Positions 1,475-12,823 of a DNA stretch of 64,000 nt are shown in pieces (the stretch's first letter is position 1; each line of letters starts with the position of its first letter). Location: the NCBI GenBank assembly GCA_947632555.1, contig CANRPU010000001.1:124001-188000 (forward strand), given 5' to 3'. This stretch comes from an uncultured Lachnospiraceae bacterium (GTDB lineage: Bacteria; Bacillota; Clostridia; Lachnospirales; Lachnospiraceae). A program made the position numbers and the translations under genes. Below the pieces are notes generated by a model, which did not search any database, was not told the origin of the DNA, and saw only the letters and a list, made by a program, of their open reading frames with translations.

Positions 1475-3529
1475 TTATATGAGTTTTTTGACCGACTGCG
1501 CCATATCCTGCGCCACGGCCAGCGGCAGTCTGGCAATCTCCATCCTGAGGCACAGGATATTTTCCGCCCGGGGAGAAAGCGCATCCGCCTGAATGTACAT
1601 ATTGGGGTCTTTAGTGGGAAATACGATCCCGTCCGCGGGTTTCAACAGCCTTCCGTTGGCGGTAAAAATCTTGGGGTCCCGCAGGGGGATCTTCGCGCCG
1701 TTCCATGTCATTTCCAGGATCTTCACCACACAGGCATCCATACAGGGATCTATCCGCAGTACACGTACGTTTCCGTCCACCCGCAGTTCCATTTCGATCT
1801 CCTGCTCTCCCTGATAGGCATCCGGTACAAAATAGGAGTCCTCTTCGGAAAAGTCATCTCCCCTGTTTTCATACACCTGCACCCGGTTGACCAGTGCGCC
1901 GGTCTCCAGTTTTTCCATCCACTTTAACGGCTGTATGACCCTCTGTCCCAGAACATTGCGGATCTCCGCCATGGACAGGTTTTTACCCGTCACAAACTTC
2001 TGGAACTCCCGCTCCTGCTCTCTGTAGTATTCGGCTTCTTCCGGCGTAATACGCAGCTCGTCCAGAATGGCGTCCAGATCCAGTTTATTTCTCTTTTCAT
2101 CCTCCAGCAGATAGCAGTAAACGGCTCTGAAAGCCAGCTCCTTCGTTTCCATCTCCTTGCCGAAGGTCCACTCATAGTCAATGACATTCCAGACATCCCC
2201 CTGCACGATAATATTGCCGAAGGTCAGATCAAAGTCCGCCGCCGGATATTCCTCACGGTAGCCCGTCCTCTCCACATATTCCGCAAACAGTTTCCGAAAC
2301 CGCTCCTGATCATCCCTTTCCAGACATTCGTCCAACAGCTCCGACAACCGTCTGCCTTCCAGAAACTCAAACGAGCACCAGACCTTTTCCCCCTCCTCGT
2401 GCAGTTCGCAGGCGTTGATCTCCAGCCGGCCGCCTTCATAGCGCTTCCGCAGATCTTCAAAGGCCATCGCCATTCCCCGCACATGTTCTACAGCTTCCCC
2501 GCACAAAGGGTGTTTTTCCACAAGCAGTTTTCCCTCTCCGCCGCGCCGGATCTCCGTGCGGATCCGATATTCGGGCGCGCGGTCGCTGGAATATTTCGCG
2601 AATTTCACATCAAAGCCGCTTCCGATCACCACCAGATAAGAATTGGCAAACACAGGGAAAAGGCCGTCTTCCACAACGCCGTCAAAGGCGTGGCTCTCGT
2701 CAAACAAAAGCATCCTGTCCCTGTCAAAATTGCGCAGATTATCGGAGAGTTCTCCTTTTCCCGGCAGATACTCGTCCGAATACAACGCCGTCATGAATTT
2801 GTAATCCGGATACGGGTAATAGAACTGATATTCCTCGATCCCGCAGGCGGCAAAAAGTTTTTCCAGTCCTTTTCTGGAAAAAGTCCTGACGCCACCTCCT
2901 CCGGCGTAGTTTTCGATCCCGGAAAAATAGCTCCCCAGATGATCTTCCCTGCAGCCGGCGAAATATTTCATACCGTACTTGTTTTCAATGGCAATGACCA
3001 CCCTGCCGCCTTTTTTCAGATGCCTCATCAAAAGGCGCAGGAATTTTTCAAAAGGCTTTTCTCTGCCCATGTAGCTTTGACCGTACTCCAGCACTCCTAC
3101 CAGAAAAATATAGTCAAAGTCCTCCGACAGCACCGGTTCGATATCCTTAAAATTTCCCACATGGATGGTCACGTTGCCGCATTCGCTGTTCCGGTAAGCG
3201 TTTATCATACTCCGCTTTTTTGACAGGTCAACGCATACCACTTCACCGCTCTTCCGCGCCAGAGCGCCTGTAACGGCTCCGCAGCCGCTTCCCACCTCCA
3301 GCACTTTCTCCGTTCCCTCCATGGGGATCCAGTCCACGATATTTTCCCGCTGGGAAGAAAGATGATACAAGATCGGCCATTGCGCCTTTTCCTCTATTAT
3401 GCGCTGATATTCTATCCCCGCATAATTCCTTACGATCTCCAGCAGCTCGTCCTCCACCTGTCCGTCACAGTACAGGTCCTCACCCGGGTAAAAAGTATAA
3501 TCCAGTTTTATCTTTCCGATCTCTTCCAT
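1475..3529 (-). CDS. WbdD-like SAM methyltransferase fused to kinase-like domain
   Basis: This 684-residue protein begins with a class I SAM-dependent methyltransferase: motif I VLEVGSGCGAVTGAL is at residues 76-90 and an acidic DLS follows at 101-103. From about residue 330 the sequence resembles the kinase/aminoglycoside-phosphotransferase fold. DLTFGN at 434-439 matches the catalytic Asp...Asn loop, and VIDYEW, with Asp451, matches the metal-binding Asp. The last ~150 residues (about 550-684) look beta-rich and unassigned. This order of domains is that of WbdD, which methylates and phosphorylates the non-reducing end of E. coli O9a chains to stop growth and mark them for export. It lies 18 bases after wzt in the same operon, which fits a chain-terminator role. 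The function is inferred from architecture and context; the protein could instead modify another sugar or lipid carrier. Confidence 0.7.
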   Translation of the reverse strand: MEEIGKIKLDYTFYPGEDLYCDGQVEDELLEIVRNYAGIEYQRIIEEKAQWPILYHLSSQRENIVDWIPMEGTEKVLEVGSGCGAVTGALARKSGEVVCVDLSKKRSMINAYRNSECGNVTIHVGNFKDIEPVLSEDFDYIFLVGVLEYGQSYMGREKPFEKFLRLLMRHLKKGGRVVIAIENKYGMKYFAGCREDHLGSYFSGIENYAGGGGVRTFSRKGLEKLFAACGIEEYQFYYPYPDYKFMTALYSDEYLPGKGELSDNLRNFDRDRMLLFDESHAFDGVVEDGLFPVFANSYLVVIGSGFDVKFAKYSSDRAPEYRIRTEIRRGGEGKLLVEKHPLCGEAVEHVRGMAMAFEDLRKRYEGGRLEINACELHEEGEKVWCSFEFLEGRRLSELLDECLERDDQERFRKLFAEYVERTGYREEYPAADFDLTFGNIIVQGDVWNVIDYEWTFGKEMETKELAFRAVYCYLLEDEKRNKLDLDAILDELRITPEEAEYYREQEREFQKFVTGKNLSMAEIRNVLGQRVIQPLKWMEKLETGALVNRVQVYENRGDDFSEEDSYFVPDAYQGEQEIEMELRVDGNVRVLRIDPCMDACVVKILEMTWNGAKIPLRDPKIFTANGRLLKPADGIVFPTKDPNMYIQADALSPRAENILCLRMEIARLPLAVAQDMAQSVKKLI

Positions 3530-3547
3530 CCCGATACCCCGTTCCCT

Positions 3548-4831
3548 TCAGGCTTCCTGCCGGTACGGGATCACTTTCTCTCCCCGCCGGGAAATCGTTT
3601 CCACCGTGACCCGGGAGTTCATATCAAAGAATCCCACCGTATCCTTGTCCGACACCACCGTTACGTTTAAAACGTCATAAAGCCTGTGATAAACCTGAAA
3701 ATCACTTCCGTTATAACCCGTTACGCCCAAAGAAAGCAGATATTCTCCTCCCTGCAGGCTCATGGTCTGCGTAAAAGAGATCTCCTTTTCCTCTCCGGCC
3801 TCCACCGGTTCCAGAAACGCCTTTTCCACCATGCTGTTGGTACCGGTAATTTCCGTTCCCTTAATGTTCTTAAAGGTAAACGCAAAAATCGGCGCCGCGA
3901 TCCGCTCATAAAATTTCACCCGCATACGAATCGTGAAGGAAGAGCCCTTAATAACAGCCGTGGTTTTCATATTTTTCTCATCCGCTATATAAAACTCCGT
4001 GATCTCCGCCTGTTTTGTTCCGTACTCCAGAAGTTCCGGATTTAACGCGCTGTCGATAACATCTTCCTTCCCGTCTTCCACTTCATACTGTCCCGCCAGC
4101 ACCTGCTTAAAAGCATCGATCATCTCCTTGGGTTTTCCTTCTCCCAGCAGATTCCCCTGGTTGAGCAGATATACCCTGTCACAGTATTTGCTGATGCTGC
4201 TCAGGTCGTGGCTGACAAAAACAATGGTTTTTCCCTGTTTTTTAAACTCTTCAAACTTCTGATAACATTTCGCCTGAAAGAACACGTCCCCTACGGAAAG
4301 CGCTTCGTCCACGATCAGGATCTCCGGTTCAATATTGATCGCCACGGCAAAGGCCAGCCGGACAAACATACCGCTGGAATAGGTCTTTACCGGCTGATAC
4401 ACATAATCCCCGATATCCGCGAATCTCAGGATCTCCGGCAGTCTTTCATCAATTTCCTTTTCGGAAAACCCCATCATGGTGCCGTTCAGATACACGTTTT
4501 CTATGCCGTTGTATTCCATGTTAAAGCCGGCGCCCAGCTCCAGCAGCGCGGAAATACGCCCGTCCACCTCTACCTTTCCGGCAGTCGGGTTCACTACGCC
4601 GGTTATGATCTTCAGGATCGTGGATTTTCCCGAGCCGTTGGTACCGATGATGCCCACGGTTTCTCCCTGAAAGATCTCCATGTCGATCCCGTTTAAGGCA
4701 TAGTGCTCCTTTACGCCGCCCCGCTTAAAACCAAACGCCTCCTTCAGTCTGTCGGAAGGTTTGTTATACAGCTTATACACTTTTTTTAAGCCGCTTACCC
4801 GTATGGCAATTTTTTTCGTCATTTCTTCCAT
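3548..4831 (-). CDS. wzt: polysaccharide ABC transporter ATPase with C-terminal extra domain
   Basis: This is the ATPase of a Wzm/Wzt (TagGH-like) exporter acting at the inner face of the membrane. Walker A GTNGSGKST is at 63-71, the short signature YSSGM at 151-155 (typical of this subfamily), Walker B ILIVDEAL at 171-178 and the H-loop SHD at 207-209. At 427 residues it is about 170 longer than a bare Wzt. Residues ~265-415 look like a beta-sandwich of the Wzt C-terminal type, which in E. coli O9a recognises the capped chain end. The start is uncertain between 4831 and 4822 because neither has a strong ribosome site. Its neighbours are the permease upstream and the putative chain terminator downstream. 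Confidence 0.88.
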   Translation of the reverse strand: MEEMTKKIAIRVSGLKKVYKLYNKPSDRLKEAFGFKRGGVKEHYALNGIDMEIFQGETVGIIGTNGSGKSTILKIITGVVNPTAGKVEVDGRISALLELGAGFNMEYNGIENVYLNGTMMGFSEKEIDERLPEILRFADIGDYVYQPVKTYSSGMFVRLAFAVAINIEPEILIVDEALSVGDVFFQAKCYQKFEEFKKQGKTIVFVSHDLSSISKYCDRVYLLNQGNLLGEGKPKEMIDAFKQVLAGQYEVEDGKEDVIDSALNPELLEYGTKQAEITEFYIADEKNMKTTAVIKGSSFTIRMRVKFYERIAAPIFAFTFKNIKGTEITGTNSMVEKAFLEPVEAGEEKEISFTQTMSLQGGEYLLSLGVTGYNGSDFQVYHRLYDVLNVTVVSDKDTVGFFDMNSRVTVETISRRGEKVIPYRQEA

Positions 4832-4906
4832 ATTTTCCGTTTCCCCGCGCTTACAGCGTATCTCATTCCCGCAATAGATAGAATATACGCTGTCTTTCCC
4901 TGAAGC

Positions 4907-5899
4907 CTACAGCACGTCCGCAAAATGTATTTTCAATCTTTTAAAGACCAGCGCGCCCAGTCCGAACAGCACTACCGTGATGATCCAGAAATACATAGTG
5001 GAAAAGAAATCTTCAAAAAACCAGGAATGCCCGTATATAGCATCCCGGTATCCGTTTACGATATACACCATGGGATTCAGTTTTAAAAATTTCCCCCAGA
5101 TTTCAGAAACAGCGCCAAAATCCCACATAATGGGCGTGGCCCACATGCCGATCTGCAGCACGATCGCCAGGATCTGGGAAATGTCCCGCATGAACACCAC
5201 CAGCGCGCAGGTCGTATAACTTAAGGCCAGCACCAGTACAAAAGTGCAAAAGCTGTAATAAAAGATCTGCAGCGTATAAACAGTGGGAAAATAACCGTAC
5301 AGTGCGGCGATCAGTACCAGTACGCCCACAAAAAACACATGGATAAAGGTAGCGCCGATGACTTTGATAATGGGAAGAATACTGATCTTGAAGACCACCT
5401 TTTTTACCAGATAATTGTATTCCAGCAGCGCATTCGTCCCATTGGTCCATGCCTCGGTAAAATAGAACCACGGCACCAGCCCGGCGGTGAGAAACAGCAC
5501 AAAAGGAACCTCTTCGTTTCCTCTCATGGCCCTTCCCGCCCCATGCATGATCACGTCAAAGACCAGCCAGTACATGACCACCGTCACCACGGGCTGCACC
5601 ATCGCCCATACAATGCCCAGATAGGAACCCGCGTAACGCTTCTTAAAATCATTTTTAGCCAGCTTCCAGATCAGATGACGATTCTGATACAGTTCCACCG
5701 GCAGTGTTGTCACTTTTTCATACAGCAGGATAAAAACAGCGCAGGAAAAAGCGATCACCGTACAGGAAATCACCTTTTTTAAAAGTTCCTCCTGCTGGTC
5801 CGCGGCAGGATTATGATGTAAAATGATCACGGCAGCCATCGCCAGCGCCGCCGCGCAGAACAGGGCGATTCCTACCCTCTTAGAAACTTTTTCTTTCAT
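4907..5899 (-). CDS. wzm: polysaccharide ABC transporter permease
   Basis: This is the membrane half of the exporter, an ABC-2 permease of 330 residues. The core with the FKKRYAGSYLG amphipathic segment begins near residue 70 and has about six membrane helices. Two further hydrophobic segments at about 8-27 and 42-60 precede the core, whereas plain Wzm proteins are about 260 residues. The start at 5899 is preferred over a longer reading from 6067, because it has an AGGAG site and its ATGA overlaps the rmlC stop by 4 bases, a sign of translational coupling. The longer reading would run through rmlC. It partners with the ATPase immediately downstream. Confidence 0.9.
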   Translation of the reverse strand: MKEKVSKRVGIALFCAAALAMAAVIILHHNPAADQQEELLKKVISCTVIAFSCAVFILLYEKVTTLPVELYQNRHLIWKLAKNDFKKRYAGSYLGIVWAMVQPVVTVVMYWLVFDVIMHGAGRAMRGNEEVPFVLFLTAGLVPWFYFTEAWTNGTNALLEYNYLVKKVVFKISILPIIKVIGATFIHVFFVGVLVLIAALYGYFPTVYTLQIFYYSFCTFVLVLALSYTTCALVVFMRDISQILAIVLQIGMWATPIMWDFGAVSEIWGKFLKLNPMVYIVNGYRDAIYGHSWFFEDFFSTMYFWIITVVLFGLGALVFKRLKIHFADVL

Positions 5900-6468
5900 T
5901 CCCGCTCCTGTCGCATCCGGTCCCTGAAATCCCGCAGGCTCCCCCACTTTGTATCCTTTTCGGAAAGGATCAGCTGAACGCCTTCCTGCAGGGGCCATTT
6001 GATCCCGATATCCGGGTCGTTCCACAAAATGCCGCCTTCGTCCCCCGGATGATAGAAATCCGAGCATTTATAGCAAAACTCCGCGTATTCCGAAAGTACC
6101 AGAAAACCATGGGCAAAATTTTTCGGTATAAAAAGCTGCTTCTTATTCTCCTCGCTCAGGATCTCCCCATGCCAGCAGCCAAAAGTCGCGGAGTCCGGCC
6201 GGAGATCTACCATGACGTCAAAAACCTCGCCCCGGATCACCCTCACCAGTTTATCCTGTGGAAACTCTTTCTGGAAATGCAGTCCCCGCAGCACTCCCTG
6301 TCTGGACGCGGACTGGTTGTCCTGCACAAAGATCTGCGGGATCCCGGCATCCCGGTAATCATTGTAATGATAGGTTTCCGTAAAATATCCTCGCTCATCG
6401 CCGAAAACCTGCGGCGTGATGATCTTCACGCCTTCTATCCGGCATGTTTCCACGGTGATCTTTCCCAT
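5896..6468 (-). CDS. rmlC: dTDP-4-dehydrorhamnose 3,5-epimerase
   Basis: Converts dTDP-4-dehydro-6-deoxy-D-glucose to the L-lyxo form in dTDP-L-rhamnose synthesis. The 190-residue cupin has the usual length. GVLRGLHFQ carries the catalytic His64, and EFCYKCSDFYHP at about 130-141 carries the conserved tyrosine region, followed by NDPDIGIKWP. A GGAGG site precedes the ATG. It lies between the smaller GH25 gene and wzm, with a 4-base overlap to wzm. The last enzyme of the pathway, RmlD, is not in the window. Confidence 0.95.
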   Translation of the reverse strand: MGKITVETCRIEGVKIITPQVFGDERGYFTETYHYNDYRDAGIPQIFVQDNQSASRQGVLRGLHFQKEFPQDKLVRVIRGEVFDVMVDLRPDSATFGCWHGEILSEENKKQLFIPKNFAHGFLVLSEYAEFCYKCSDFYHPGDEGGILWNDPDIGIKWPLQEGVQLILSEKDTKWGSLRDFRDRMRQERE

Positions 6469-6480
6469 ATATAGTCCTCC

Positions 6481-7743
6481 TTAATATCCCAGATAACTGA
6501 CATCCAGGTCCACATTGCCGGCGATGCCGTCTATGCTTCCCTGCGAAGTATACTGCCACATCTGATAGTATCCCTGATAGATCGGGGCACTACGGTATTC
6601 GGCAAGCCATATCACGTATTTTTCCAGGGAGGCGGCATCCACCCGGTTGTTGTACCAGTTCCGGCTGGCGTATACCCCGCCCTCGTAACCGGCATTTTCC
6701 ACGGTACGGCAGAACGCATCGCACACCATCGTCCTGGTTTCCACATCCAGTCCGTCCGCCCTGCCATGGCCTCCCGCCCCTTCCGTATCAATAAACACCG
6801 GATACGTAATGTCGTAATCCCTTATCAGGCTCACCACCATACTGGCTTCTTCCACTGCTTCCACCTCGTTGACGGCCTGCGTGAAAAAATAGATCCCCAC
6901 TTTTACTCCGGCGGCCAAAGCGCCCTTCACATTCTGTTGAAAGCGAGGGTCTTCCACCAGCGCCCCGGTCACGGAACCCCGGTACCCGCAGCGGATAATG
7001 GCATATTCCACTCCCGCGTCCCGCACCCGATCCCAGTCAATTTCTCCCTGCCACTTGGACACGTCGATCCCCATCTCGCCATTGCTCAAAGGCCTGGGGA
7101 TCCCCGCCATTTCCGTAGAATCTCCGTCATCTACGGCCTGGGCGCTGTCCTCCGCTTGCGCGTCGATCTCCTCTTCGGTCCTGATCAGCAGATTGATATC
7201 GTCAATGACAAGGTATTCCACTTTATCTTTCACTCTGACCCTGGTACTGTCGGAAGGTACTCTGTATCCCGCGATGGGCTTTAAACTCACCTGATACTCC
7301 CCGGCCGGCAGATTTCCGATATAGACTACTCCGTCCCGGTCCAGGTCCTTATATTCGCCCACATTTTCCAGTTCTATAAAAAAACTTTCTCCCGTCACAG
7401 GCTCGTTTTCACTGTTCACTACCTGTATGCGCAGATCTTTTTCCACGCTGGTAACGATCAGGGACAACCTTGTCTGCTCTTCCATAAGACTGTCCAGAAA
7501 CGGATTGGTTTCCGGATCGAAAAAAGTGTCATCCCGCATAAACGCGGACAGATCATTCCCGATCATACCGCTTTGATAGATCCTGCCCGACCCTGTTTCC
7601 GGCACGGCCGTTTCCAGCGTAGATTCCTGTGTCTGCCCGTTGACGGGGCGCCGCGCGGAATTGAGCGCCAGTATCAGCAGCAAAGTAAACAGGATGACGG
7701 AAACCGCCGCCGTAATGGTGAGCCTTTTCAGCTTAGAGTCCAT
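6481..7743 (-). CDS. membrane-anchored GH25 muramidase-like protein (smaller paralogue)
   Basis: This 420-residue protein has one N-terminal membrane helix (about 7-29), a linker, a small beta domain (about 93-190) resembling SpaA/prealbumin-like folds, and a glycoside hydrolase family 25 domain (224-420). Candidate catalytic residues are Asp227 in GIDVSKWQG and the Asp319/Glu321 pair in VFIDTEG, so it looks active against peptidoglycan or a related wall glycan outside the cell. The ATG at 7743 is chosen over a TTG at 7755 because a GAGG site sits in the tail of rmlA, which it overlaps by 11 bases. Its beta and GH25 domains match those of the much larger protein at 9741-12722. Its placement inside the rml operon suggests wall remodelling linked to polysaccharide assembly. 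Confidence 0.85.
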
Positions 7744-8602
7744 TTGCAACCTCAACTAAATATTTCCCGTAATTGGTCTTCATCAGGGGCTCCGCCAGAG
7801 CCATGAGCTGTTCTTTGGTGATAAATCCCCTTTTATACGCGATTTCTTCAATACAGGAAATATACAGGCCCTGCCGTTTCTGAAAAGCCGCCACAAAGTC
7901 CGCGGCATCCAGCAGCGCATCGTGATTTCCCGTATCCAGCCACGCGAATCCTCTTCCCAGCGTTTCCACTCTCAGACTGCCTCTTTCCAGATAAACGTTG
8001 TTGATGCTGGTAATCTCGATCTCTCCCCTGGCGGAGGGTTTGACATTCTTCGCTATTTCCACCACGTCATTGTCATAAAAATACAGACCGGGGACAGCGT
8101 AATTACTCCTGGGATGTTCCGGCTTCTCCTCAATGGAAAGAGCCTTTCCGTTTTCGTCAAATTCCACTACGCCGTATTCCTTGGGATCTCTGACGTAATA
8201 ACCGAAAATGGTGGCGCCGCTTTCCCTGGCCGCCGCTTCCCGCAGTACTTTTGAAAAGCTCTGCCCGTAAAAAATATTATCTCCCAGTACCAGCGCCACT
8301 CTGTCCTTGCCGATAAAATCGGCGCCGATGATAAACGCGTCCGCCAGACCCCTGGGTACCTCCTGCACCGCGTAGGAAAAGCTCATTCCCAGCTGTTCTC
8401 CGGTTCCCAGAAGTTCCTGAAACACCGGCAGATCCCTTTCGGTGGAAATGATCAGAACCTCCCTGATCCCCGCCAGCATCAGCGTGGACAGCGGATAATA
8501 TATCATAGGTTTGTCATAAACCGGCATGATCTGCTTGGAGATTGCCTTGGTAAGAGGATACAGTCTGGTTCCGGAGCCTCCGGCCAATATGATTCCCTTC
8601 AT
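7733..8602 (-). CDS. rmlA: glucose-1-phosphate thymidylyltransferase
   Basis: Makes dTDP-glucose from glucose-1-phosphate and dTTP. The 289-residue length is normal for the short RmlA type. The nucleotide-binding motif [11 protein letters not shown] is at 8-18, followed by the [16 protein letters not shown] segment, and [11 protein letters not shown] lies near 105-115. An AAAGGA site precedes the ATG. It sits between rmlB and the smaller GH25 gene and shares their transcript. Its product leads both to rhamnose (RmlC) and probably to the 4-amino sugar made by the aminotransferase at 15956-17101. Confidence 0.96.
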
Positions 8603-8617
8603 ACACCCATTCCTTTC

Positions 8618-9703
8618 TCACTTGTTTCCGTACATATCGCTGTAATACTTCTGATAATCCCCGCTGGTCACATGCTTCATCCAGTCCTCGTGCTCAAAAT
8701 ACCACTGTATGGTCCTGCGAATGCCGTCCCTGAACTTGGTTTCCGGATACCAGCCTATGGCGTTCTTTATCTTGTCAGGCGCGATAGCGTACCTGCGGTC
8801 GTGTCCCTTGCGGTCCTCCACATAGGTGATCAGATCCTTGGTTACGGATTTTTTCCTGGGATCTTCTTCCGGGAGCATTTCCTGCAGCGTTTCTATGATG
8901 ATATTGACAATTTCAATATTCTGCTTTTCATTATGTCCGCCGATGTTGTAGGTCTGAAAAAGCTCCCCCTGCTCCTGCACCATATCAATGGCCTTGGCGT
9001 GGTCCTCCACGTACAGCCAGTCGCGCACATTTTTTCCGTCCCCATACACCGGCAGTTTTTTTCCGGACAGCGCGTTGTTGATAATGAGCGGGATCAGCTT
9101 TTCCGGGAACTGATACGGTCCATAATTATTGGAGCAGTTGGTAATGTTGGCCGGGAAACGGTAGGTATCCATATAGGCCTTGACCAGCATGTCCGAAGCC
9201 GCCTTGCTGGCGGAGTACGGGCTATGAGGATCATAAGGCGTGGTTTCGTAAAAGAAAGCGTTATCATCGTCGGGAAGAGAGCCGTACACCTCGTCCGTGG
9301 ATACATGCAGAAACTTTTTTCCTTCCCTGAATCCGCCGTCCGGCAGTTCCCACGCTGCCTTTGCGCAGTTTAACATGACCGCGGTCCCCAGTACATTCGT
9401 CCGTACGAAAACTTCAGGATCGCGGATGCTTCTGTCCACATGGCTTTCGGCGGCGAAATGCACCACCCGGTCGATATCGTTTTCCCTGAAGATCCTGCTG
9501 ATGGCATCTTTATCGCAGATATCGGCCTTTATAAAAGTATACCCGCTCCGATTCTCCACATCCTTCAGATTCTCCGGGTTTCCCGCGTACGTCAGGGCAT
9601 CCACATTGATGACGCGGATCTCATCCCCGTACTTCCGAAATATATAGTGAATATAGTTGGAACCGATAAATCCTGCTCCTCCCGTTACCAGATAAGTTCT
9701 CAT
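8618..9703 (-). CDS. rmlB: dTDP-glucose 4,6-dehydratase
   Basis: Makes dTDP-4-dehydro-6-deoxy-D-glucose, the branch-point sugar of this cluster. This is a short-chain dehydrogenase-type enzyme of 361 residues. The NAD motif GGAGFIGSN is at 8-16, the STDEVYG catalytic segment at about 135-141, and the YSASK (YxxxK) pair at Tyr163/Lys167. An AAGGAG site precedes the ATG. It is 15 bases before rmlA in the same direction. Length and motifs are typical. Confidence 0.96.
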   Translation of the reverse strand: MRTYLVTGGAGFIGSNYIHYIFRKYGDEIRVINVDALTYAGNPENLKDVENRSGYTFIKADICDKDAISRIFRENDIDRVVHFAAESHVDRSIRDPEVFVRTNVLGTAVMLNCAKAAWELPDGGFREGKKFLHVSTDEVYGSLPDDDNAFFYETTPYDPHSPYSASKAASDMLVKAYMDTYRFPANITNCSNNYGPYQFPEKLIPLIINNALSGKKLPVYGDGKNVRDWLYVEDHAKAIDMVQEQGELFQTYNIGGHNEKQNIEIVNIIIETLQEMLPEEDPRKKSVTKDLITYVEDRKGHDRRYAIAPDKIKNAIGWYPETKFRDGIRRTIQWYFEHEDWMKHVTSGDYQKYYSDMYGNK

Positions 9704-9740: not shown

Positions 9741-12722
9741 TCAATACCCCAGATAACTCAGATTCAGATCCACATCCGTGTTGATGCCGGTTACCCTGCC
9801 CGTTGACTTATACTGCCATATATCATACCTTCCCGTATAAGTAGGGGCGGCGGCGTACTGCGCCAGCCAGATCTTATACGCGGAAAGCTGACTGGTGTCG
9901 ATCATGCTGGTCAGCCAGCTCTTGTTGGCATAGACCCCCGCGGTATAACCCGAATTCTGAATGGTTTCGCAAAAAGCCCTGATGGCTTCCGTCCGGGCCG
10001 CCACGCTGATACCGTCCGCGCGGCCCCTGCCTCCTCCGGCGCCGGAGTCCTCCACATCCAGGAAAACCGGATAGGATATGGTATACCCTTTTATCAGCTG
10101 CAGTACCATGGAAGCCTCTTCCACACCCTCCGCCTTGTTGACCGCCTGCGAGAAGAAGTAAACGCCTACTTTAATGCCTGCTGCCGTGGCGCCCTTTATA
10201 TTCTGCTCAAAATAAGGATCCACTACCAGGGCCCCGCTGCCGTAGCCTCTGTAGCCGCAGCGGATGATCACATAGCTGACCCCGGAATTTTTTACGGCGG
10301 CCCAGTCTATCTTTCCGTTCCACTTGGAAACGTCTATGCCGAAGGAACCGTTTCCTACTACAAGAGAACCGTCGCTGGCAAAATTATATTTCGCGCCCTG
10401 TATCACCTGTTCTCCGGTCACTTTGTTGCCGTTGGCGTCAAAATAATACATTTTGCCGTCCAGGCTCTGCCACCCTGTATACCGGGGCGCCGATTCCGTC
10501 TTCACGTAAAAGGTGGTTACCGCCGTATTGGCATAGTGCGCGTAGGTGGCCTCTTCATACTTACCGTCCGCCACCTTCACCCAGAGCTGCCTGCTGCTGC
10601 CGTCCACCAGCTTGCTTTCTTTCGCGATAACGGTCACGCTGATGTCCGCGCTCTTTTCACTTCCTCCCGCTTTGCAGGTAACGGTTATCACCGCGCTGCC
10701 GGCGGCCTGCGCGCTTATGGGAATGGTTATGGTTGTCTGTCCTCCGCTCTCCGCTTTGGTAACCGCCGGATTCGGTATCGCTCCCGCGTTGCCGGATTTG
10801 GCGCTCACCTCGACGCCTGTGGCATTGACCGTGGCCGTTACCTGCACAGTGCTTCCCGCTATCAGCTTCAGGGAAGAAGCGCTCAGCGTAATATTAAAAT
10901 CCGCTTCCGTTACGGTTACCGTACATTTTGCCGTTACCGTACCGTCCTCGGTCTTTACGGTCACGACCGCCTGTCCCTTGGCCAGCGCGGTCACGGTACC
11001 ATTTTCTACTTTCGCCACGGTGGACTGGTCAATTTCCCATATCAGTTTAGTATCCCCGGCTTCCGCGGGTATGATCTCAGCCGTCAGGGTTTCCGAAGCT
11101 CCCACCGTTAAGGAAAGTTCCGTCTTGCTCAGCTTTATTTCCGTCACGGAAGGACTGGGAGAGGCCGAAATTTCCGGTGACGGGGAAGCATCCGGCGAAG
11201 GGGAGGTATCCGGTGACGGGGAAACATCCGGCGAAGGAGAAGCGTTGCCCTCGGAAATGTCCGACGGCGCCGCCAGCGGTACGGCCTCGTTCGAGGGGAA
11301 GGAAAAAGTCCTGTCCGCCAAAAGCCCCACCGGGGATTCCAGCGCGGCTTTCATTACGCCGCCGGTTCCAGCGGCCAGTGTCACGCCCACATTGACCTGC
11401 GATCTGGGCACTTCTGTCCAGGTAACGCCGCCGGGCGTTACAGTGGACTCTACCCACGCCACGGTATCCTGCAGTTCGGATTCTACCTCCAGATTATTTT
11501 CCGCATCTTCTTTCTGTGTCAGTTCCGATTCCGTCTTGATCTCATCCGAAACATCCACCTTTTCATACGCGATCTCCTTACGGACCGTTGCCTTGATTGG
11601 AGTAGTGGACATGGAATATCCCGCGTATTTACTGTCTGTCAGAGCATTCATGGTCACCGTATAGTTTCCCGGCGTAATACCGCTCATATAGATAATGCCG
11701 TCCATATCGTCATCCGACCAGGTTTCCGTTTTGCCGTCAGGCGTCTTTACTGTCACGGAAAAAGGGACATTGGCGATCAGCTTATGCGTTTTGCTGTTGA
11801 CGAACTTTAATTTCAGGTCCTTTTCGATAGAGGTCATATTCAGGGTAACCTCTACCTCCCTTTTATAATCATTTTCCTCATAGGATTCCTCTTCCTGGTT
11901 TTCTTCCTCCTCTATGGCATCCGCCGCCTGTATTTTTGCCAGCTCCGCATCCGCCACCGCGGTCAGTCCGTGTTCCCCTATCAGCGTAATACCGTCCATC
12001 TGCGCGCCCACCATCTCAAAGGAAGCGGTTTCCCTGTTCCTCCTCTGTCCACTGATAAACACGGCACCGGTCGCTATGCCAAGGATCAGAACCAGTACCC
12101 CCGTAGTGGTGATGATCCTGTCCATAACGCTCATATGCACAAGGGAATACCAGACTTTACGAAAAATATTTTTATCCGGCACGTCATCCCATACCGGGAT
12201 CTCTTCCTCACCGGCATCTTCTTCGTAATCCTCTTCATAAAATTCCTCGTAAGCCTCCTCATAAAAGGGGTCTTCCCCTTCATCGGCATCTTCCATCATA
12301 TCGACTTCTTCCATCATGTCGACTTCTTCCATGACGTCGGCCTCTTCCATCATGTCGGCTTCTTCCATAGCGTCGACTTCTTCCATCATGTCGACTTCTT
12401 CCATGGCGTCGGCCTCTTCCATCATGTCATCTTCTTCCATGGCGTCGACTTCTTCCATCATGTCGGCCTCTTCCATGGCGTCAGCATCTTCTATCATGTC
12501 GGCCTCTTCCATGGCGTCAGCATCTTCTATCATGTCGGCTTCTTCCATGGCGTCAGCATCTTCTATCATGCCGGCCTCTTCCATGGCGTCCTCATCCGCT
12601 TCAAGGGAATAGAAATCTTCTTCCTCTTCAAATTCTTCAAATGCCTCCTGAAAATCCAGGTCCTGTTCGTCCCATTCCGCTTCGTTTTCCAATCGCCTTC
12701 CGCGTCCGAACAATTTTTTCAT
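9741..12722 (-). CDS. large GH25 protein with cytoplasmic acidic repeats, Ig-like and wall-binding-type domains
   Basis: This is a 993-residue single-pass protein. Residues 1-200 are strongly acidic and predicted cytoplasmic, with a 5/10-residue repeat of the type DAMEEADMIE over about 44-147. A membrane helix spans about 203-223. Outside follow a beta domain (~290-400) also found in the smaller paralogue, a Ser-Pro-rich linker (~495-525), a Big_2-like Ig domain (~525-605), a second Ig-like domain (~606-700), repeats like choline/cell-wall-binding motifs (GWQSLDGKMYYFDANGN, ~750-790) and a GH25 domain (794-993) with Asp797 and the Asp889/Glu891 pair. The start at 12722 has a GGGAGGAG site; a longer reading from 12812 does not. 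It is the first gene of the rml/ABC operon. The domains imply wall hydrolysis or attachment; the role of the acidic tail is unknown. Confidence 0.85.
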   Translation of the reverse strand: MKKLFGRGRRLENEAEWDEQDLDFQEAFEEFEEEEDFYSLEADEDAMEEAGMIEDADAMEEADMIEDADAMEEADMIEDADAMEEADMMEEVDAMEEDDMMEEADAMEEVDMMEEVDAMEEADMMEEADVMEEVDMMEEVDMMEDADEGEDPFYEEAYEEFYEEDYEEDAGEEEIPVWDDVPDKNIFRKVWYSLVHMSVMDRIITTTGVLVLILGIATGAVFISGQRRNRETASFEMVGAQMDGITLIGEHGLTAVADAELAKIQAADAIEEEENQEEESYEENDYKREVEVTLNMTSIEKDLKLKFVNSKTHKLIANVPFSVTVKTPDGKTETWSDDDMDGIIYMSGITPGNYTVTMNALTDSKYAGYSMSTTPIKATVRKEIAYEKVDVSDEIKTESELTQKEDAENNLEVESELQDTVAWVESTVTPGGVTWTEVPRSQVNVGVTLAAGTGGVMKAALESPVGLLADRTFSFPSNEAVPLAAPSDISEGNASPSPDVSPSPDTSPSPDASPSPEISASPSPSVTEIKLSKTELSLTVGASETLTAEIIPAEAGDTKLIWEIDQSTVAKVENGTVTALAKGQAVVTVKTEDGTVTAKCTVTVTEADFNITLSASSLKLIAGSTVQVTATVNATGVEVSAKSGNAGAIPNPAVTKAESGGQTTITIPISAQAAGSAVITVTCKAGGSEKSADISVTVIAKESKLVDGSSRQLWVKVADGKYEEATYAHYANTAVTTFYVKTESAPRYTGWQSLDGKMYYFDANGNKVTGEQVIQGAKYNFASDGSLVVGNGSFGIDVSKWNGKIDWAAVKNSGVSYVIIRCGYRGYGSGALVVDPYFEQNIKGATAAGIKVGVYFFSQAVNKAEGVEEASMVLQLIKGYTISYPVFLDVEDSGAGGGRGRADGISVAARTEAIRAFCETIQNSGYTAGVYANKSWLTSMIDTSQLSAYKIWLAQYAAAPTYTGRYDIWQYKSTGRVTGINTDVDLNLSYLGY
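12282..12593 (-). repeat. in-frame tandem repeat encoding acidic Met-Glu-Glu units
   Basis: About 310 bases consist of imperfect 15-base units that group into 30-base units, for example (plus strand) tcttccatggcgtcggcc. They lie within the large GH25 gene and encode the repeat DAMEE-ADMIE. Copies near the 5' end of the gene are more alike than those further in. The array keeps the reading frame, so gain or loss of units would change only protein length. Confidence 0.9.
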
Positions 12723-12794
12723 ATTCTCCTCCCTATCGAACAGCCGGTCAAAAACTACTTCAAGGGCTGATTTTATCCGCAATAATCCTGTATC

Positions 12795-12823
12795 ATTATA
12801 ACATTCAGGCATTCTCCCGGCAA
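12795..12823 (-). promoter_or_regulatory. promoter for the large GH25/rml/ABC operon
   Basis: On the minus strand a TTGCCG -35 (12818-12823) is separated by 17 bases from a perfect TATAAT -10 (12795-12800). Transcription would begin near 12788, about 65 bases before the GH25 start. The hexamers and spacing fit the main vegetative sigma factor. Confidence 0.55.

Follow-up and report, generated by a model that had tools for sequence, protein, structure and literature searches.

We propose that a 684-residue methyltransferase-kinase protein of an uncultured Lachnospiraceae bacterium caps a rhamnose-containing, lipid-linked surface polysaccharide with methylphosphate, and that the C-terminal domain (Wzt_C) of the adjoining ATP-binding cassette (ABC) transporter ATPase Wzt reads this cap for export (probability roughly 0.78). 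The gene lies in a 64,000-nucleotide stretch, hereafter the window (G000:C1:124001-188000), of a 2.57 Mb genome. Judged through homologues and published residue positions, the closest characterised relative of the protein appears to be ORF6 of Klebsiella pneumoniae O7, described as adding methylphosphate to terminal rhamnose (Kelly and others 2024, PMC11231755). Together with wzm and wzt, the gene closes the minus-strand run rfbB-rfbA-GH25-rfbC-wzm-wzt-methyltransferase/kinase. The original prediction, made from the letters of the window, had described an operon with Wzm and a 427-residue Wzt bearing an extra C-terminal domain; that domain is indeed Wzt_C (PF14524; Wzt residues 269-404, E 2.5e-41, above the cut-off), and the partner Wzm is present. 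Wzm likely starts at 5899, while its longest open reading frame (ORF) begins at 6067 and overlaps rfbC.

1475..3529, minus strand: methyltransferase-kinase protein, the proposed chain terminator, 684 aa (ORF, Pfam, alignment, model)
3548..4831, minus strand: Wzt, ABC transporter ATPase, 427 aa (ORF and Pfam)
3620..4027, minus strand: Wzt_C domain (PF14524), the proposed cap reader (Pfam)
4907..5899, minus strand: Wzm, ABC-2 membrane component, 330 aa (ORF and Pfam)

A methyltransferase, a kinase-like domain, an operon shared with Wzm and with a Wzt that bears Wzt_C, and a strong co-occurrence of the protein with Wzt_C together make capping followed by export the best reading. From the genes, the domain order, the predicted topology, the conserved residues, the tie to Wzt_C and an arginine in its pocket we infer a substrate, an order of two reactions, a cap, a reading step and an anchoring step. 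The 684-residue protein would end the growth of a lipid-linked rhamnose-containing polysaccharide in the cytoplasm: its kinase domain would phosphorylate the terminal residue, probably rhamnose, and its methyltransferase domain would then methylate that terminal phosphate. Wzt_C, with Arg383 in its pocket, would read the methylphosphate, and Wzm/Wzt would export finished chains only, after which an LCP enzyme may anchor the chain to the wall. The likely polymerases are two dual-GT2 (glycosyltransferase family 2) proteins, separate polypeptides encoded about 97 kb away.

Domain organization and predicted fold

The predicted order, a methyltransferase followed by a kinase-like domain, is recovered. 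Pfam places Methyltransf_11 at residues 77-179 (E 1.7e-11, above its cut-off), and the kinase motif residues had been numbered exactly (Asp434, Asn439, Asp451).

2660..3529, minus strand: methyltransferase domain, residues 1-290, with E78-G80-G82, Tyr20, Tyr55, Asp101 and Tyr149 (Pfam; mapping to published O7 ORF6 positions via a Pseudomonas homologue)
1985..2644, minus strand: kinase-like domain, about residues 296-515, with Lys339, Asp434, Asn439 and Asp451 (alignments and model; no Pfam match)
2213..2230, minus strand: catalytic loop Asp434...Asn439 (invariant in 48 and in 35 sequences)
1523..1888, minus strand: C-terminal beta domain, about residues 548-669, where O7 ORF6 has an immunoglobulin (Ig)-like carbohydrate-binding module (CBM) (model; part aligned to the Pseudomonas homologue)

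We aligned the window protein with 47 hand-picked single-ORF homologues from 80 fetched loci (alignment A1, 48 sequences) and found Lys339, Asp434, Asn439 and Asp451 invariant throughout. In a set of 35 sequences including three proteobacterial ones, Asp434, Asn439, Glu453 and Trp454 are invariant, and Lys339 and Asp451 are kept at 90% or more. A chance kinase motif was rejected on this invariance across phyla.

An AlphaFold2 model built from A1 (mean predicted local distance difference test, pLDDT, 90.3; predicted template modelling score, pTM, 0.81) has a methyltransferase as its N-terminal part, followed by strands at 297-302, 308-313, 323-329 and 335-341, the last holding Lys339. A helix (344-363) and strands in the 369-388 stretch come next, then two helices (395-404, 408-422), the loop that holds Asp434 and Asn439, a hairpin (440-449), Asp451 and helices between 462 and 514; a beta domain (551-667) forms the C-terminus. 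Assigned by eye from these modelled elements, the order is that of a protein-kinase-like two-lobed fold, which takes in residues 330-480, the stretch on whose kinase fold the original prediction had staked its case. Searched against solved chains, the whole-protein profile finds kinases at best E 0.003, and all 12 matches of the kinase-only profile are kinases or, in one case, a phosphotransferase.

Relation to ORF6 and WbdD

In the account of ORF6, its contacts to S-adenosylmethionine (SAM) are given as Y28, Y66, G91, G93, E112 and Y158, its D441 as essential for kinase activity, and its kinase as quite different from that of WbdD in sequence and structure (PMC11231755). Our comparison runs through homologues, chiefly the Pseudomonas protein, and published residue numbers. 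At all six SAM positions the Pseudomonas protein agrees with ORF6 in both letter and number, and the aligned window residues are Y20, Y55, G80, G82, D101 and Y149 (Asp for Glu at one position); Pseudomonas D443 aligns to window D434 and matches ORF6 D441 by position. Like ORF6, the window protein comprises a methyltransferase, an unannotated kinase region of about 220 aa and then a beta domain, with SAM and catalytic positions conserved, and is adjoined by Wzm/Wzt and dTDP-rhamnose genes. The beta domain, predicted where ORF6 has its Ig-like CBM, is likened to it by place in the chain alone. Unlike ORF6, the window protein has no GT2 modules and no detected coiled coil; its host is Gram-positive, and the polymerase homologues lie ~97 kb away.

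The original prediction had taken WbdD of E. coli O9a / K. pneumoniae O3 as its model. WbdD shares the methyltransferase-kinase order and a proposed methylphosphate product, and is partnered by a Wzt with a reader domain like PDB 2r5o; however, it is described as having a coiled-coil ruler after the kinase (PMC3482155), and none was found in the window protein. WbdD is not supported as the closest relative: the window protein groups with ORF6, whose kinase is described as differing strongly from WbdD's (PMC11231755). No chain named WbdD appeared among the solved chains matched in our searches (14 matches; the best 60 of 84 with the whole-protein profile; 12 with the kinase-only profile).

Association with the exporter

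We kept 80 of 123 loci found, mostly labelled uncultured Lachnospiraceae, as is the nearest (L014, 80% identity). Co-occurrence with long Wzt proteins, proposed beforehand as a check, is pronounced: a Wzt with Wzt_C ends directly upstream of the methyltransferase in 78/80 loci, though the loci are closely related and the count is therefore not independent. A median of 44 bases (range -31 to 279) separates the Wzt_C match, measured from its end, from the start of the methyltransferase. In the two exceptions (L046, L077) the DNA available upstream is 37 bases long or absent. Among 398 genomes sampled evenly from the phylum (protein called at E up to 1e-20), 12 have the protein, 43 have Wzt_C and 9 have both. 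Wzt_C is thus found in 9/12 genomes with the protein versus 34/386 without (P-value 1.5e-7) and, outside the window's own family, in 5/8 versus 33/385 (P-value 3e-4). The protein and Wzt_C lie on different contigs in G246 and G312.

Lid residue of the cap reader

Trp362 of Aquifex Wzt is described as stacking against the cap's 3-O-methyl group, and replacement of this Trp by Leu as essentially abolishing lipopolysaccharide binding (PMC9445017). The window Wzt has an arginine at this lid position.

3683..3685, minus strand: Wzt Arg383, aligned to Aquifex Wzt Trp362, the methyl lid (alignment)

Among the 80 loci, all 72 Wzt ORFs within the length range considered (370-600 aa) have Arg as the lid, and so do the Wzt partners of the Pseudomonas, Citrobacter and E. 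coli NT1F25 homologues; other pocket positions differ from Aquifex Wzt too. We then took 40 further stretches from the phylum sample. There the lid beside a methyltransferase-kinase is R, R and H (L144, L145, L146). It is W or Y in 11/11 cases beside a methyltransferase without detected kinase, a class defined by no match to the kinase profile and no Pfam kinase, from which a kinase missed by both would escape. L129 and L130 have an Arg lid too, beside neighbours headed by a sulfotransferase domain (E 2e-5 to 3e-5, below the Pfam cut-off), as does the E. coli plasmid locus L115, whose neighbour has a clear one (E 1.1e-22); these three loci were kept despite a missing anchor Asn. With Lachnospiraceae counted once, phosphate- or sulfate-type neighbours go with Arg or His in 11/11, giving 11 basic and 0 aromatic lids versus 0 and 11 (P-value 2.8e-6); for loci fetched after the idea arose the counts are 5 and 0 versus 0 and 11 (P-value 2.3e-4). 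The position was picked after a first look at the Lachnospiraceae alignment, and both P-values ignore shared ancestry.

The unclassed rows are a further weak point: some have an aromatic lid next to a neighbour other than a methyltransferase, and some have a basic lid that we could not assign to a class. Left out as unclassed were L125 (W, neighbour a glycosyltransferase), L138 (W, neighbours glycosyltransferases), L137 (Y, neighbour without a family), L127 (Y, scanned gene non-adjacent), L134 and L157 (Y and W, neighbours unscanned), L133 (R, a very distant methyltransferase and an unannotated 547-aa ORF) and L147 (R, methyltransferase-kinase on another contig of that genome). A further eleven were left out with the anchor Asn unaligned and neighbours unclassed: L143 (I), L152 (Y), L153 (L), L154 (F), L156 (R), L158 (I), L159 (W), L160 (Y), L161 (W), L162 (H) and L163 (E). 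So were L114 (G, no terminator recognised), L139, L148, L149 and L150 (no long Wzt) and L151 (no alignable tail); L095 and L099 (both R) come from the same family as the window and received no separate count.

A profile of 13 Wzt tails finds PDB 2r5o as its best solved match (E 1.1e-32). This structure, described as the reader domain of the methylphosphate-capped E. coli O9a antigen (PMC6286764), has Arg at the lid position. We tentatively suggest, at somewhat less than even odds, that this one Wzt_C position tells cap chemistry across bacteria: a Trp or Tyr lid would mark a neutral methyl cap and Arg (once His) an anionic methylphosphate or sulfate. The window Wzt would then be a Gram-positive reader of an anionic cap, and the sulfotransferase-headed proteins would be sulfate terminators.

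Sulfotransferase-headed proteins stand in the terminator position beside Arg-lid Wzts at L115 9406-14769, L129 5121-8684 and L130 3554-4750, and are possible sulfate chain terminators.

Chain length and polymerases

A coiled coil is called a characteristic marker of the known capping strategy (PMC11231755). A crude home-made heptad scan (35-residue windows; no trained predictor) found 0 coiled-coil-like windows in the window protein; elsewhere the same scan gave 21 windows in E. coli NT1F25, 12 in Citrobacter, 7 in Pseudomonas and 4 in L062. The longest helix of the AlphaFold2 model has 20 residues and lies inside the kinase. The C-terminal ~130 residues, originally suggested as the length-sensing part, do not resemble the one known from WbdD: they are modelled as a beta domain, no coiled coil was found there, and we rejected them as a ruler. 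Since no coiled-coil ruler was found in the window protein, chain length is probably not set by one in it.

The protein ends after the beta domain, with no glycosyltransferase domain by Pfam or in the model. The two dual-GT2 proteins (616 and 821 aa) are encoded on the same contig at G000:C1:24150-28490; they share 38-49% identity with the GT2 halves of five fused terminators, and their identity to ORFs close to the Anaerosacchariphilus terminator reaches 56%. If they serve the same glycan, terminator and polymerase would be separate and the ruler model inapplicable as such.

Points against and alternative explanations

Several results weigh against methylphosphate capping read by Wzt_C. The Pfam scan of the window protein returned methyltransferase models only and left the kinase region without a match; among the 35 homologues the sole kinase pointer from Pfam is one weak APH match (E 0.11). 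The kinase-only profile matches its solved chains at E 0.23 or worse, and Foldseek with the whole model gave methyltransferases only, with no solved kinase, among the 50 best matches listed. Three of the 12 genomes with the protein (G149, G199, G318) have no Wzt_C match, so the finding that the original prediction named as telling against it, homologues without the exporter, is borne out in part; 9/12 have both. G199 encodes a 579-aa Wzt-like protein near the protein, and no long Wzt was found in the stretches taken around it in G149 and G318. Proteobacterial tails form part of the profile that matched 2r5o; the full-length window Wzt alone has as its best solved match Aquifex 8dku, with Trp in the reader. 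Finally, glycosyltransferases that adjoin the protein in relatives are missing here (two GT2 ORFs follow it in relatives such as L015), and the locus could be partly decayed.

The kinase might be active and the cap different, either phosphate alone or a cyclic phosphate like the one that ends the S-layer glycan of C. difficile Ox247; the methyltransferase would then act at another place on the sugar. The C. difficile glycan, also from an ABC-transporter system, is described as ending in 2,3-cyclophosphoryl-rhamnose (PMC6254364), phosphate methylation by ORF6 as incomplete in vitro (PMC11231755), and an Arg pocket would suit any phosphate. However, the SAM residues of the methyltransferase are conserved, and the methyltransferase and kinase parts stay adjacent even as two ORFs (10/80 loci); we consider this explanation rather unlikely.

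We give about one chance in ten to the view that the protein terminates no chain and acts on a different acceptor, a sugar or phosphorylated one in a side branch or linkage unit. The missing coiled coil, given its standing as a marker of the known strategy (PMC11231755), would fit such a role, but neither the Wzt(Wzt_C)-terminator gene order in 78/80 loci nor the agreement between lid residue and neighbour chemistry among the classed rows does. Very improbable is a relic, in which capping and export genes persist and the polysaccharide is no longer made after loss of the neighbouring polymerase genes: besides the absent GT2 ORFs, the next ORFs in L014 match the window phosphoglucomutase, LCP and glmS genes (in size only), but the reading frames are intact, the catalytic residues are conserved, and the two dual-GT2 proteins on the same contig are 42-56% identical (matches listed) to those in related loci.

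Gram-positive precedents

Length control by capping had been called little described in Gram-positives. This holds only in part. Our literature search found no Gram-positive methyltransferase-kinase terminator and no lid code, with specialist 2019 studies of terminators and the O9a reader and a 2020 review outside its reach. Mann, Kimber and Whitfield reportedly published a bioinformatic study of such terminators in 2019. Capping as such has precedents in Gram-positives. WsaE of Geobacillus stearothermophilus is described as a methyltransferase plus two rhamnosyltransferase domains (PMC2943079, PMC3898925) making a 2-O-methyl cap (PMC2943079). It resembles our case in its Gram-positive host, its rhamnan and a methyltransferase-made cap predicted to be bound by Wzt (PMC2943079, PMC3898925); likened by description, it differs in its methyl cap and in its three active domains, none of them a kinase, whereas the window protein has a kinase-like domain and no glycosyltransferase domain by Pfam. 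The S-layer glycan locus of C. difficile SLCT-11 shares a Gram-positive host, an ABC transporter, rhamnose and a phosphate at the non-reducing end, and differs, again by description, in that the phosphate is cyclic; the words methyltransferase and kinase are absent from the main text of that paper (PMC6254364). ORF6 orthologues are reported from alpha- and gammaproteobacteria and cyanobacteria, with related clusters in other bacteria and an archaeon, and the words Gram-positive and Firmicutes are absent from the main text (PMC11231755).

Should our reading hold, Lachnospiraceae would widely couple methylphosphate capping of their surface polysaccharides to export, partly without the coiled-coil ruler described as marking such systems, and the setting of length there would be open to test. 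With one reader residue as a predictor of cap charge, cap chemistry could be guessed from a genome before the polysaccharide is studied by nuclear magnetic resonance.

Relatives and modular rearrangement

Ten of the loci (L058 of the cultured Anaerosacchariphilus polymeriproducens, L083, L086-L093) encode the methyltransferase (about 310-340 aa) and the part with the kinase as separate, adjoining ORFs, and in other relatives such as L062 (1436 aa) methyltransferase, kinase and two GT2 stretches are fused in one chain. Given such splits and full fusions, the three kinds of module are shuffled yet stay together. A tree of 93 methyltransferase domains (hand-chosen rows, including one identical pair and the very distant L133) has 15 rows labelled split and needs 5 changes, at least 3 of them by well-supported branches. 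L016 (labelled Muribaculum) and L028 (labelled Gastranaerophilales) fall within its Lachnospiraceae part and are possibly mis-binned contigs. At L133 1713-4390, the very distant methyltransferase and the 547-aa ORF, which follow an Arg-lid Wzt, could be a split methyltransferase-kinase pair.

A tblastn search against plasmids matched 3/72,556 records. The Pseudomonas asturiensis protein (1457 aa; E 5e-43 over residues 20-596 of the window protein) adjoins an ABC permease and a Wzt_C-bearing Wzt, the Citrobacter braakii protein (649 aa) follows rfbBACD, a permease and a Wzt_C-bearing Wzt, and the Deinococcus match is a short methyltransferase without permease or Wzt neighbours. We examined three of 225 E. 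coli genomes with a Wzt match. NT1F25 has rfb genes, a GT2, a permease, a Wzt_C-bearing Wzt and a 1279-aa protein that combines a methyltransferase and two GT2 stretches with similarity to the kinase region (E 7e-36 over residues 51-475); the other two have, respectively, the plasmid locus with the sulfotransferase-headed protein and a 705-aa neighbour without a Pfam family. The O7-like rfb-Wzm-Wzt-terminator cluster of NT1F25 (L113 2613-13038) is chromosomal, flanked by insertion-sequence transposases and near tail-fibre assembly genes. The Pseudomonas and NT1F25 proteins share the domain layout of O7 ORF6.

Neighbouring genes

The remainder of the run comprises:

5896..6468, minus strand: RfbC, dTDP-4-dehydrorhamnose 3,5-epimerase (Pfam)
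6481..7755, minus strand: GH25 lysozyme-like protein, between rfbA and rfbC (Pfam)
7733..8602, minus strand: presumably RfbA, dTDP-rhamnose pathway (ORF)
8618..9703, minus strand: presumably RfbB, dTDP-rhamnose pathway (ORF)

The gene for the last dTDP-rhamnose enzyme, rmlD, is found above the cut-off on another contig (C4), so the cell can probably make dTDP-rhamnose. Downstream of the methyltransferase-kinase gene lie genes for a phosphoglucomutase and an LCP-family protein and one that we take to be glmS-like. A DUF6056 protein is encoded between wzm and wzt in L015 (5106-6620), as are similar-sized ORFs in many listed relatives, with none in the window. Many listed relatives also have the GH25 ORF between rfbA and rfbC, and the run includes a second GH25 lysozyme-like protein (window 9741-12812, 1023 aa) with a long acidic Glu/Asp/Met repeat.

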